Positions 39,248 through 42,490 of a stretch of DNA of 64,000 bases are shown here, piece by piece (positions within the stretch are counted from its first letter, which is position 1; every line of letters starts with the position of its first letter). The position numbers and the translations under genes were made by a program. This stretch comes from Flavobacteriales bacterium (GTDB lineage: Bacteria > Bacteroidota > Bacteroidia > Flavobacteriales_G > Salibacteraceae): assembly GCA_018660685.1 (NCBI GenBank), contig JABJJW010000011.1, forward strand, positions 124,001-188,000. Reading direction: 5' to 3'. The notes beneath the pieces were generated by a model, which made no database searches, had not been told where the DNA came from, and was given only the letters and a program-made list of their open reading frames with translations.

Positions 39248-39994
39248 CTAATGGATCATTCCCTCATTTAGGAGCTTTTCGAAGAATGGACGAATTCGCT
39301 CTTTTACGGCTGGAATATCGGTGAGGTTGAATTGAGATTCCATAACTGGAACGAGGTCGCGTAACTTGCTCGGCTCTAATCTCATTGATTCGATGAGCCA
39401 AGCAAAGAAGGGACTCACATTCATAAACTTGACCTTGAATGTGCCGGGCTGCCTGAATATGATGCAGAAATAAGAGCCAACATCGGTTCTTGAAATAAAA
39501 CGAGCATTCTTCATATGGAGCGGGTAGGAGAGAGCCATGATCTCCATCTCAGGATTGAGACGCCAAGGATCTTCCCAAAAGTCACCGGATCGCTCAATGG
39601 GAAATGTCAGATCAGCCATCATGTAGTATTCAACCTCTTTCCACTCAAAAATCATCAATTCGAGAAGCCATGGATACTTCTCGCATAACGAAGAATGTGT
39701 TGACTCGGTAAAATCGATGAGTTCAAATGGCATTCGCCATACCTGAGGGTTTTGGCATCGATGATCTCGAAAGAAGTTGAAGCAGAGCTCATCCCATTCT
39801 TTTGTGGAGAGCAAATTTTTAGAAAGAGGATATGAACTGCCCAGGGCGTCTTGCACAACACTGAAGACAAGTCTTCTATAATTTTTTAACCTACCATCTG
39901 TAGTTCCAATAAGCTCTGGTTCAACATTGGAGCGGCAGAAATCAGCTAGCTTCTGTTGCTGTGATAATGTTTCAGGCTTCAGCATGGTGCTCAT
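39248..39994 (-). CDS. DUF2063 partner protein of the MNIO enzyme (HvfC-like)
   Basis: The 248-residue protein has the DUF2063 N-terminal domain (QQQKLADFCRSNVEP, then LKNYRRLVFSVVQDALGSSYPL) and a C-terminal domain with ELMIFEWKEVEYYM. These proteins bind the precursor peptide and present it to the DUF692 oxygenase; they are essential partners in HvfABC-type pathways. It overlaps the DUF692 gene by 23 bp (M4 at 39985 is an alternative start) and is the last gene of the operon. No terminator is evident before the MATE gene start region 41 bp away. Confidence 0.88.
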   Translation of the reverse strand: MSTMLKPETLSQQQKLADFCRSNVEPELIGTTDGRLKNYRRLVFSVVQDALGSSYPLSKNLLSTKEWDELCFNFFRDHRCQNPQVWRMPFELIDFTESTHSSLCEKYPWLLELMIFEWKEVEYYMMADLTFPIERSGDFWEDPWRLNPEMEIMALSYPLHMKNARFISRTDVGSYFCIIFRQPGTFKVKFMNVSPFFAWLIESMRLEPSKLRDLVPVMESQFNLTDIPAVKERIRPFFEKLLNEGMIH

Positions 39995-40811
39995 GTTTCC
40001 AGGCTCTTTTGCTGATTGATTTTAGTCTTTCAAGTTCGGTTTGGAGCTCTCCCATTTCTGGTATGTTGAAATCTCTTTCTAAGAGAATTGGAACTTGATG
40101 GTCGAGTTTGCCGATGGCAAACTCAAAAAGATCGTAAACCGGATCTATAATTGGTTGACCATGTGTGTCTATGATCAAATCATCGCTGATTTTTTCATGA
40201 CCGGCCATATGAATGTACCGCACTCGAGAAAGATCGAGTTGTTCTATGAATTCTTTGGGGTTGTATCCATGGTTGAATCCATTCACATAAATATTATTAA
40301 TGTCAAAAAGAAGTTCACAATCGCTTTCACTTTGGATCGCATTGATGAATTGAACCTCTGTCATTTCTGCAGCGACCGGCGTGTAGTAGGAGACAATTTC
40401 AATCACAAGCTTATGTCCTAGAAAATCTTGCACCTCCTTGATCCTCTGGCTAATATGCTTAACTGCGTCCTCTCTAAATGGAATTGGAAGTAAGTCATAG
40501 AGATGGGCATTGTCGCATTTGCTGTAGCTCAAATGTTCAGAATAGATTGGAACATTCCATTCTTCAATGAATGATTTGATTTTTCCTAAAAACTTCCAGT
40601 CAATTGGATCTGGACTTCCGATGGACAATGACAGACCATGTAGAAGAATCGGATATTGTTCAGCAACCTTGTCCAGTTGCTTCTTCCAATAACCGCCCAC
40701 ATCAATCCAATTCTCTGGCGCTAATTCCACAAAATCTGGCTTGATGACGGACTGGTCAAAAAAGGCAGAACCGAAGTCCTTGCGAAACCCTATGCCTACA
40801 CCATCATTCAT
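39972..40811 (-). CDS. DUF692 multinuclear iron-dependent oxidase (MNIO, HvfB/BufB-like)
   Basis: MNIO enzymes use an iron cluster and O2 to convert peptidyl Cys; in HvfB-type enzymes the product is an oxazolone/thioamide copper ligand. The 279-residue TIM-barrel protein shows the metal-site strings HGLSLSIG, YSEHLSY, VIEIVSYYTP, LFDINNIYVNGFNH, RYIHMAGHE, DTHGQPI and LLERDFN. Gene order precursor, DUF692, DUF2063 matches known MNIO operons. It lies 53 bp downstream of the precursor gene, behind a strong hairpin that may limit its expression relative to the precursor. Confidence 0.92.
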   Translation of the reverse strand: MNDGVGIGFRKDFGSAFFDQSVIKPDFVELAPENWIDVGGYWKKQLDKVAEQYPILLHGLSLSIGSPDPIDWKFLGKIKSFIEEWNVPIYSEHLSYSKCDNAHLYDLLPIPFREDAVKHISQRIKEVQDFLGHKLVIEIVSYYTPVAAEMTEVQFINAIQSESDCELLFDINNIYVNGFNHGYNPKEFIEQLDLSRVRYIHMAGHEKISDDLIIDTHGQPIIDPVYDLFEFAIGKLDHQVPILLERDFNIPEMGELQTELERLKSISKRAWKHEHHAEA

Positions 40812-40824
40812 AACTGGAAATAAA

Positions 40825-40849
40825 AAGCCCGAAGTTCTGCTTCGGGCTT
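40825..40849 (-). terminator. Intrinsic terminator-like hairpin between precursor and enzyme genes
   Basis: AAGCCCGAAG (40825-40834) and CTTCGGGCTT (40840-40849) form a perfect 10-bp stem with a 5-nt loop. On the minus strand the stem is followed by TTTATTT. It lies 15 bp after the precursor stop and 13 bp before the DUF692 start. A partially read-through terminator here would give much precursor and little enzyme. Confidence 0.75.
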
Positions 40850-40864
40850 CAATTATTTGATCAT

Positions 40865-41281
40865 TTACTCAGTGCCACCGCACTTTCCTTCGCCGCACTT
40901 GTGCTCAGTGGACTTGGATTCATCTTTCGTTTCTTCAGAGGCTTTAGCATCTGTAGAAGTCTGAGCTTCTTCCTTATGCTCTCCGCACTTTCCTTCGCCG
41001 CATTTGTGCTCTGCGGATTTAGAGTCAACCGCAGCATCTGTTGATGTTGATGACTCCGCTTTCTTTTCCTCGCCGCACTTTCCTTCGCCACACTTGGCTT
41101 CGCCAATCTTAAATCCAGTATTTGATGCATCAAGAAGGTCGCTTCGCAATTCAGCGCCGGAACCTAAATCGTCAAAATCAAACATTGTGTTGGCATTTAC
41201 TGCTCCAACGCTAAGAATTGACCCTGAGATCAATGTACCTGTGATTACGGCGCCCAAGGCGCTCTTCTTCTTACTTTCCAT
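40865..41281 (-). CDS. HvfA-type secreted RiPP precursor with three KCGEGKCG modules
   Basis: The 138-residue protein has a basic N-terminus and signal peptide (residues 1-31, KKSALGAVITGTLISGSILS), an acidic leader-like segment (FDFDDLGSGAELRSDLLDA) and three copies of KCGEGKCG at 63-70, 93-100 and 128-135, joined by Ser/Thr/Lys/Glu-rich linkers. All six cysteines (64, 69, 94, 99, 129, 134) lie in these modules. EGKCG is the site modified by MNIO enzymes in HvfA, giving copper-binding oxazolone/thioamide groups; the extra KCG five residues earlier doubles the number of candidate sites. It follows the anti-sigma gene by 32 bp. Function as an envelope copper buffer is inferred from the family. 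Confidence 0.88.
   Translation of the reverse strand: MESKKKSALGAVITGTLISGSILSVGAVNANTMFDFDDLGSGAELRSDLLDASNTGFKIGEAKCGEGKCGEEKKAESSTSTDAAVDSKSAEHKCGEGKCGEHKEEAQTSTDAKASEETKDESKSTEHKCGEGKCGGTE
40880..41095 (-). repeat. Three imperfect DNA repeats encoding the KCGEGKCG modules
   Basis: The strand-opposite core CACTTTCCTTCGCCGCA-like sequence recurs around 40870-40900, 40985-41010 and 41075-41095 with few changes. Spacing between module starts is 30 and 35 codons, consistent with past internal duplication including linker sequence. Confidence 0.65.
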
Positions 41282-41313
41282 AGTTGTTATTTAAGGATGA
41301 TTTGAGTTTATTA

Positions 41314-41547
41314 TTATCCCATCTCTGGGTTTACTTTTTCTTTTAGATCACCTTTTTCTTCTTGGGTGAACTTTTCGTCGAGATCTATTTGCTTGAGAGT
41401 TCTATTGATCCAATCAATTTGCTTCTTAAATCTCCGGCAGTTTTTGCACCAGACCATATGATACATGAGCTTGAAAGTCTCCATTGTGGAGAGCTTTTTT
41501 TCGCCCATTTTCTCACCTAATATTCCAGCTTCTTTGCAACAAATCAT
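41314..41547 (-). CDS. Small soluble zinc-type anti-sigma factor
   Basis: The 77-residue protein starts at ATG 41547, overlapping the sigma-factor stop as ATGA (a TTG at 41556 is also possible). It has an H-x3-C-x2-C motif (H30, C34, C37 in MYHMVWCKNCRRF), the signature of ZAS anti-sigma domains, plus an early CC pair (C3, C4). There is no membrane helix, so it must sense inside the cytoplasm; thiol chemistry or metal exchange (Cu or Zn) at the ZAS site is the obvious possibility. Being coupled to the sigma gene and upstream of the precursor, it is expected to gate the operon. Confidence 0.8.
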   Translation of the reverse strand: MICCKEAGILGEKMGEKKLSTMETFKLMYHMVWCKNCRRFKKQIDWINRTLKQIDLDEKFTQEEKGDLKEKVNPEMG

Positions 41548-42107
41548 GTCATCCAATTCTTTTCAAGACATTCTCTCAATTTGAGTTTTGCTCTGTGAAC
41601 TAAAACCCAGTAGTTGGAAGAGGATATATTAAGTTCCTTACATATCATCTCAGAATCCTCACCATCAATGTACTTCATTGTAAACACGGCATTCTGCACC
41701 TCATTGAGTCTATTTTTACACTCATTGAGTACATGCATAAATTCGGCACTTCTCACCATTTTGTCTGTCGTCCACTCGTTCGGAGCGCCATTTTTTGACC
41801 AGTGACCAGTAGAATTAAAGAAGTCATCGCTGTCCTCGTCATCGTCTGCTTCTTTGAGTTGAGACTCAAGTACTTCTTTCTTCTTTTTGTAATGGTCGAG
41901 TATGCGGCTTTTCAATATTAGAAACAGCCAATTCATTTCCGAAATTTCTCCTCGGTATTGTTCTTTAGTTCTGATGGCGGTTAGAAATGTTTCTTGAACT
42001 AAATCCTTCGCTATTTCTCGCTCTTTTATCCTGATCAGCGCATAGTTCAGCAATAGGTCACTGAATACGTCTATCCACTGTTCGGGATGAAGCTGATGTT
42101 TGGCCAT
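41544..42107 (-). CDS. ECF sigma factor (TIGR02943-like)
   Basis: The 187-residue protein has sigma region 2 (AKDLVQETFLTAIRTKEQYRG, MNWLFLILKSRILDHYKKKK) and region 4 (FTMKYIDGEDSEMICKELNISSSNYWVLVHRAKLKLRECLE). The linker with GHWSKNGAPNEW and the C-terminal NW match the group usually paired with small H-C-C anti-sigma proteins. It heads the precursor/MNIO operon and presumably transcribes it. No conserved ECF promoter can be pinned down in the 59-bp upstream gap, which contains the terminator of the upstream gene. Confidence 0.88.
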   Translation of the reverse strand: MAKHQLHPEQWIDVFSDLLLNYALIRIKEREIAKDLVQETFLTAIRTKEQYRGEISEMNWLFLILKSRILDHYKKKKEVLESQLKEADDDEDSDDFFNSTGHWSKNGAPNEWTTDKMVRSAEFMHVLNECKNRLNEVQNAVFTMKYIDGEDSEMICKELNISSSNYWVLVHRAKLKLRECLEKNWMT

Positions 42108-42122
42108 GCATTCAAAAGAATG

Positions 42123-42151
42123 AAAAAAGGCGGAAGAAACTCCCGCCTTTT
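42123..42151 (-). terminator. Terminator of the 107-aa exported protein gene
   Basis: AAAAGGCGG (42125-42133) pairs with CCGCCTTTT (42143-42151) around a 9-nt loop; on the minus strand the stem runs into TTTTTTC. It separates the small gene upstream from the sigma-factor gene. Confidence 0.65.
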
Positions 42152-42166
42152 GCCATATATCTAGAA

Positions 42167-42490
42167 TTATTTCGATTCTTTTTTTCTTGCCATCATCATT
42201 TTGTCGGACTTACTCCTTGGTTTCATGCCAGGATTATAACCAGTGTGTTCGCGATCGCGCGAATTGACCTTTTCATGAGTCGAGCCTTTTTCGCCTTCGG
42301 GGATCTTTGTGGGTTTCGCATTAGAAGAAGATGGATCGACTTTAGCGTTGGCCTTCTTATCCTCACTTGAGCCCGGTGCTTTCTTGCTTACCAATGGGAT
42401 GTCCTTTTTGTTACCTTCTTGACTCTGGGCCAATGCAACCGATCCGCTGATCAGAAGTATGGCTAATGCTGAAACTATTCTCTTTTTCAT
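42167..42490 (-). CDS. Small exported Lys/Met-rich protein
   Basis: ATG 42490 gives 107 residues with a clean signal peptide (MKKRIVSALAILLISGSVALAQ); the longer frame from 42529 is rejected. The mature part is highly charged, probably disordered, with many Lys and Ser and a C-terminal cluster DKMMMARKKESK preceded by GYNPGMKPRSK. It contains no Cys. It sits just upstream of the sigma/anti-sigma/precursor operon, on the same strand, with its own terminator. The Met cluster could bind Cu(I), but that is speculation; it may be unrelated to the operon. Confidence 0.65.
   Translation of the reverse strand: MKKRIVSALAILLISGSVALAQSQEGNKKDIPLVSKKAPGSSEDKKANAKVDPSSSNAKPTKIPEGEKGSTHEKVNSRDREHTGYNPGMKPRSKSDKMMMARKKESK

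Follow-up and report, generated by a model that had tools for sequence, protein, structure and literature searches.

We analyzed a window of 64,000 nt (the whole stretch of DNA considered here, from contig JABJJW010000011.1 of a Flavobacteriales bacterium) and focused on an operon of five genes and on a putative promoter that lies inside its first gene. All five genes are carried by the minus strand: an extracytoplasmic function (ECF) sigma factor of 187 aa (41544..42107), similar to TIGR02943 (NmSigE/HiRpoE2-like) and matching Pfam Sigma70_r2 and r4_2; a soluble zinc-type anti-sigma factor (ZAS) of 77 aa (41314..41547); a captophorin/HvfA-like precursor of 138 aa (40865..41281) with a signal peptide, the motif LGSGAELRSDLL and three KCGEGKCG modules; an MNIO (DUF692) enzyme of the HvfB family (39972..40811); and a DUF2063 partner, HvfC/PME1-like (39248..39994). 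This order and common direction, given in a preliminary description of the locus, were confirmed by the coordinates and by Pfam and NCBIfam matches, and the family profiles bear out its reading that a bacteroidote here carries an HvfABC-type MNIO operon linked to an ECF/anti-sigma pair. As judged from its sequence, the operon belongs to the EGKCG-type captophorin class (HvfA/oxazolin-like, 5-thiooxazole), and its sigma/anti-sigma pair consists of a TIGR02943-like ECF sigma and a ZAS anti-sigma. The most likely start codon of the anti-sigma gene is the ATG at 41547, which overlaps the sigma stop codon as ATGA; the mechanically assigned start is a TTG at 41556. A scan of 84,980 species genomes yielded 80 related loci, nearly all from Bacteroidota or Ignavibacteriota. 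The sigma gene lies upstream and in the same direction in about 62 of the 80, and the anti-sigma motif C-X25-H-X3-C-X2-C (in the window C7-X25-H33-X3-C37-X2-C40, numbered from the TTG) is kept in 52 of 53 related anti-sigmas; for these two reasons the five-gene arrangement is not due to chance.

In most relatives we observed the pattern TGTMAGG-N15-CGWCT in front of the precursor gene, within the gap between anti-sigma and precursor and with one fixed spacing. The strict form TGTMAG-N16-CGWCT was found in 34 of 78 loci, always with identical spacing (mean of 0.025 in shuffled sequences), and with a weight matrix the intergenic promoter scored above 99% of the null in 55 of the 66 sigma-containing loci. 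When the strictest pattern was searched in six genomes, the intergenic promoter was found in three of them, once per genome. Upstream of the sigma gene, an ECF promoter was seen in just 1 of 63 loci. By sequence comparison the intergenic promoter of the relatives is the SigE consensus of Neisseria, GTMAGBWTT-N12-13-CGTCTAAH (PMC2893595), and the gonococcal captophorin operon (L128) carries TGTCAG-N16-CGTCTAA upstream of its precursor gene.

A copy of this candidate promoter, with exactly the intergenic spacing, was also observed within the sigma gene, where it occupies codons of the region-4.2 helix-turn-helix. The embedded pattern reads TGT AAG GAN in codons 156-158 and NCG TCT AAC in codons 163-165. 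In the window it spans sigma codons 156-165 (41613..41642, minus strand), with a -35 box TGTAAGG at 41642-41636, a -10 box CTTCCAAC at 41620-41613 and a predicted transcription start near 41607. The best matrix match lies inside the sigma gene in all nine members of the clade to which the window belongs, and a strong match is found there in other loci. A coding artefact was considered as the source of these matches and was overturned by a test of synonymous constraint, in which the uniformity of third bases was compared with the codon usage of each locus over 176 degenerate columns. Codons 156, 163, 164 and 157 took ranks 1 to 4 of the 176. Lys 157 is encoded by AAG in all 52 genes (15.8 expected), and outside the window clade the third base of codon 163 is G in 41 of 43 genes with K157 (8.6 expected), although the residue itself may be S, T, A or P. 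The ranking was similar for 21 non-redundant genes with less than 55% identity (codons 156, 163 and 157 at ranks 1, 2 and 3) and for the nine members of the window clade by themselves (codons 157, 156 and 163 at ranks 1, 2 and 4). In a separate, sigma-based draw of genomes of the phylum, comprising 25 sigma genes with no MNIO gene in the fetched flanks, codon 163 ranked first and codon 156 third of 174. Furthermore, the two copies of the -10 box, embedded and intergenic, vary in concert, with p 0.0012 at base 2 and p 6e-5 at base 3. No constraint was seen in codons 158-162 between the boxes, a pattern expected of a two-box promoter and not of an overlapping gene or a hairpin.

These data bear on the reading that the locus is an ordinary captophorin operon whose sole promoter, of the housekeeping type, lies ahead of sigma, the promoter-like codons being a by-product of protein conservation and codon bias. 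C-K-E and S-S-N are indeed conserved residues, the -10 box of the window deviates from the consensus, and the Bacteroidota-type element TAnnTTTG is enriched upstream of the sigma genes of relatives (11 of 63 versus 2.9 in shuffled sequences); in the window a weak candidate for such a -7 element, which may serve basal sigma transcription, is TTCTTTTG (42113..42120, minus strand, one mismatch to TAnnTTTG). However, it is the synonymous third positions that are constrained, and they top the ranking of 176 columns when the codon usage of each locus serves as the null; the third base of codon 163 is kept though the amino acid changes, and the two promoter copies change together. We regard a housekeeping promoter as the only promoter of the operon as unlikely.

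The window groups with eight relatives in a single branch (support 100/99), flanked on either side by relatives that carry the promoter. In the members measured, only 20-35 bases separate anti-sigma and precursor. In the window and its clade no ECF promoter was detected before the precursor by regular expression, by position weight matrix or with variable spacing, and none was seen upstream of the sigma gene; likewise, TGTMAGG-N15-CGWCT was found nowhere in the window's genome. By this comparison the clade has lost the intergenic promoter. The embedded -35 box is intact in 9 of 9 members, and the -10 box reads CTTC in 8 of 9; compared with the SigE target GTMAG..CGTCT, the window thus matches at -35 alone. 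TGTAAGG-N15-CTTCNAA occurs a single time in the 2.58-Mb genome, at the embedded site. Within sigma region 2.4, residues 67 and 68, usually N and K, are fixed as S and R in the clade (N67S/K68R). The embedded -10 box appears to have shifted from CGTC to CTTC in step with this region. Two other loci with F67 share a CTACT -10 box in both the embedded and the intergenic copy, from which sigma position 67 may read base 2 of the -10 box.

Taken together, we consider it probable, from the comparative sequence evidence, that the window holds a captophorin operon in which a sigma-driven promoter in the sigma gene feeds the anti-sigma gene and, in the window clade, the whole operon. With somewhat less assurance we favor a wider proposal: that in a widespread ECF sigma family of Bacteroidota and Ignavibacteriota the target promoter of the sigma is written into the codons of its recognition helix-turn-helix, so that protein specificity and promoter are bound to a single stretch of DNA and change together; that this promoter provides negative feedback by driving the anti-sigma gene; and that in the window clade, with a shifted -10 box, it has become the sole sigma-dependent promoter of the copper-peptide operon. 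In such a scheme a weak housekeeping promoter would make sigma and anti-sigma, and free sigma would fire the promoter within its own gene (41613-41642, in the region-4.2 codons). Transcription from there would begin ahead of the anti-sigma gene, and active sigma would therefore raise the anti-sigma and not itself, which would close a negative feedback loop. In most relatives the second promoter copy, in front of the precursor, would drive the peptide genes, while in the window clade, where the intergenic copy is gone, sigma-dependent transcription of the anti-sigma, precursor and enzyme genes probably starts from the embedded promoter alone.

The same embedded site might instead bind sigma-RNA polymerase unproductively, pausing or blocking polymerase or titrating sigma. 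Intragenic sites of other sigma factors, mostly inactive or pausing, have been discussed (PMC10771440), but here both boxes and their exact spacing are kept, the site lies just upstream of the anti-sigma gene, and the window-clade operon retains no other promoter copy; we judge unproductive binding to be improbable, slightly more so than transcription from a housekeeping promoter only.

Several points weigh against a productive embedded promoter that evolves with its sigma factor. The -10 box CTTC of the clade departs from the proven consensus, so that its function is an extrapolation, and one member (L001) has CCGTCC. After TGTMAGG, the intergenic -35 box prefers WTT where the embedded site has AAC or AAT. 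The gonococcal sigma gene lacks the embedded site, and some non-captophorin relatives have a degraded embedded -35 box (TGTAATG) or none. In favor of the intergenic promoter, sigma residue 168 predicts its fourth -35 base without exception (V or I with TGTAAG in 37 of 37, Q with TGTCAG in 17 of 17), but this switch counts as one event because Q168 is confined to a single clade. The p-values and z-scores ignore phylogeny, the ranking of column against column being the main control, and a few MNIO columns reach z-scores of up to 7.5 (the maximum).

In the titles and abstracts of openly licensed papers we recognized no description of an intragenic ECF-sigma promoter feeding its anti-sigma gene; as this literature alone was searchable, the novelty of the embedded promoter means that it was not found here. 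In E. coli, rseA is said to have a sigmaE promoter within rpoE.

The window sigma scores 154 bits against TIGR02943 (cut-off 162.2), and the relative L007 passes with 170.6. Cys 130, 156 and 180 are conserved in at least 95% of 67 relatives; C156 lies in the embedded promoter. Sigma/ZAS pairs with no captophorin genes in the fetched flanks were found at L139, L143, L144, L145, L147, L148, L150 and L159, each with a TGTAAGG..CGTC/CGAC promoter downstream of the anti-sigma gene, which suggests that the sigma family controls other genes too.

For the anti-sigma factor, the sequence features of a ZAS are present: the pattern C-X23-26-H-X3-C-X2-C, the lack of a membrane helix or any hydrophobic segment, and a gene directly after that of the ECF sigma. 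The soluble zinc-type class proposed in the preliminary description is thus well founded. Against NF052368 the protein scores 44.5 bits (cut-off 50), four relatives reach 53-58, and a comparison with solved structures returned nothing beyond chance thioredoxin-like matches. Motif and family predict that it binds zinc and holds the ECF sigma inactive; as a cytosolic factor it would probably release sigma upon thiol oxidation or metal stress.

Two further transcription signals were observed. A terminator-like hairpin (partial terminator) with an 11-bp stem and a T run lies in the gap between precursor and enzyme (40824..40850, minus strand), and 50 of 79 precursor-MNIO gaps contain a similar hairpin, against 6.6 in shuffled sequences; it would keep precursor transcripts more abundant than those of the enzymes. 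The intrinsic terminator of the upstream gene (42125..42151, minus strand, 12-bp stem and T run) immediately precedes the sigma start. The upstream gene itself (42167-42490, minus strand) encodes a small secreted Lys-rich protein with no Pfam or NCBIfam family match, and its strong terminator abuts the sigma start.

The precursor holds six Cys in total, all in its three KCGEGKCG modules, as can be read directly, and its signal peptide was likewise read from the sequence. It passes NF050137, 'KCGExKCG_twice' (44.8 bits, cut-off 19.5), and falls below the HvfA equivalog NF050188 (38.3, cut-off 95). The MNIO enzyme matches PF05114 (E 1.4e-94) and passes NF003818 of the HvfB family (371 bits, cut-off 360), its best solved relative being 3bww (E 2.3e-77). 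The DUF2063 protein matches PF09836 (1.4e-14) and NGO1945_C, remains below NF050145 (119 bits, cut-off 142) and has a solved relative in 3dee (3.9e-05). Scoring below NF050188 and NF050145, precursor and DUF2063 partner are members of the HvfA and HvfC families and not orthologue calls. An LGSG-type motif (LGSG-x-E-x-R) follows the signal peptide in 75 of 78 precursors; in the window (residues 38-50) it is LGSGAELRSDLL, which is possibly a docking site for the DUF2063 partner. By analogy with the family, the DUF692/DUF2063 pair would turn the Cys residues of the secreted precursor into copper-binding 5-thiooxazoles.

The preliminary description had seen in these six Cys and three modules, and in the soluble ZAS anti-sigma, a new chelator with two modifications per module and a new regulatory design that senses the cytoplasm. 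Modules and anti-sigma are both present. However, the double-Cys module is a family signature (NF050137): in H. influenzae HvfA, which already contains three AEGKCGEGKCG motifs, every one of the six Cys is modified (PMC13419390), and repeats with two EGKCG each have been described (PMC12452194). Paired modules, whose conservation among homologues had been proposed as a check, vary freely in the relatives (0-4 KCGxxKCG double modules, 3-9 Cys), and the Cys product, given as oxazolone/thioamide, is now assigned as 5-thiooxazole (PMC12668002, PMC13419390). The wiring is also published, with the cytosolic ZAS factors HrsE for RpoE2 (PMC7907618) and MseR for SigE (PMC2893595, PMC3240639) controlling this gene set. 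Hence the operon type and the anti-sigma class of that account stand, both of its novelty claims fall, and the promoter inside the sigma gene had been overlooked; as an explanation of the locus we find it very improbable.

Within the window's family (Salibacteraceae), sigma and anti-sigma genes lie upstream in the window's genus and in one other genus. Eleven other family genomes (L100-L110, L113-L123) carry precursor, MNIO and DUF2063 genes with housekeeping-like upstream elements and with no sigma/anti-sigma pair nearby; their MNIOs are placed elsewhere in the MNIO tree, which suggests separate histories for the two kinds of loci. One related locus (L069), on a contig labelled Beijerinckiaceae, is Chitinophaga-like and likely mis-binned or transferred.

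Of the known systems, the sigmaE operon of Neisseria (NMB2140-2145; the gonophorin genes in N. gonorrhoeae) also unites precursor, MNIO, DUF2063, ECF sigma and cytosolic ZAS in one operon. For N. meningitidis, a single autoregulated operon was reported that comprises SigE, the ZAS inhibitor MseR, DoxX and three 'hypothetical' genes (PMC2893595, PMC3240639), and in the fetched gonococcal locus these three genes are the precursor, MNIO and DUF2063 genes. There, however, sigma and anti-sigma come last, DoxX is present and a promoter upstream of the whole operon gives positive autoregulation, whereas in the window the sigma gene comes first, DoxX is missing from the operon and the candidate promoter lies inside the sigma gene, which in the gonococcus has no such copy. 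The hvfABCX (oxazolin) operon of H. influenzae shares three double EGKCG modules, six Cys and HvfB/HvfC partners (PMC13419390). It also depends, as predicted for the window operon, on an ECF sigma paired with a small cytosolic ZAS: RpoE2 and the 67-residue HrsE control a DoxX/DUF692-type/DUF2063 operon on hypochlorous acid (HOCl) stress, the published inducer in H. influenzae being HOCl/oxidative stress (PMC7907618). It differs in that its sigma/anti-sigma pair is unlinked to hvf, and the window precursor scores far below the HvfA equivalog cut-off. The sigF-nrsF bufferin genes of Caulobacter are similar as an ECF-controlled MNIO/DUF2063 system for a ribosomally synthesized and post-translationally modified peptide under metal stress (PMC3511200, PMC12452194), but their precursor is DUF2282 and their anti-sigma is NrsF, not a ZAS.

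Captophorin operons with a sigma/anti-sigma switch had been known from Proteobacteria; our findings widen their range to Bacteroidota and Ignavibacteriota, where the predicted promoter is the same. Active sigma is predicted to raise its inhibitor and not itself, the opposite of the positive autoregulation in Neisseria. If the embedded promoter is true, the DNA-reading helix of a regulator and its own target site share the same nucleotides; such a dual-coded site would limit how the sigma factor can change its specificity and would offer a testable model of sigma-promoter co-evolution.

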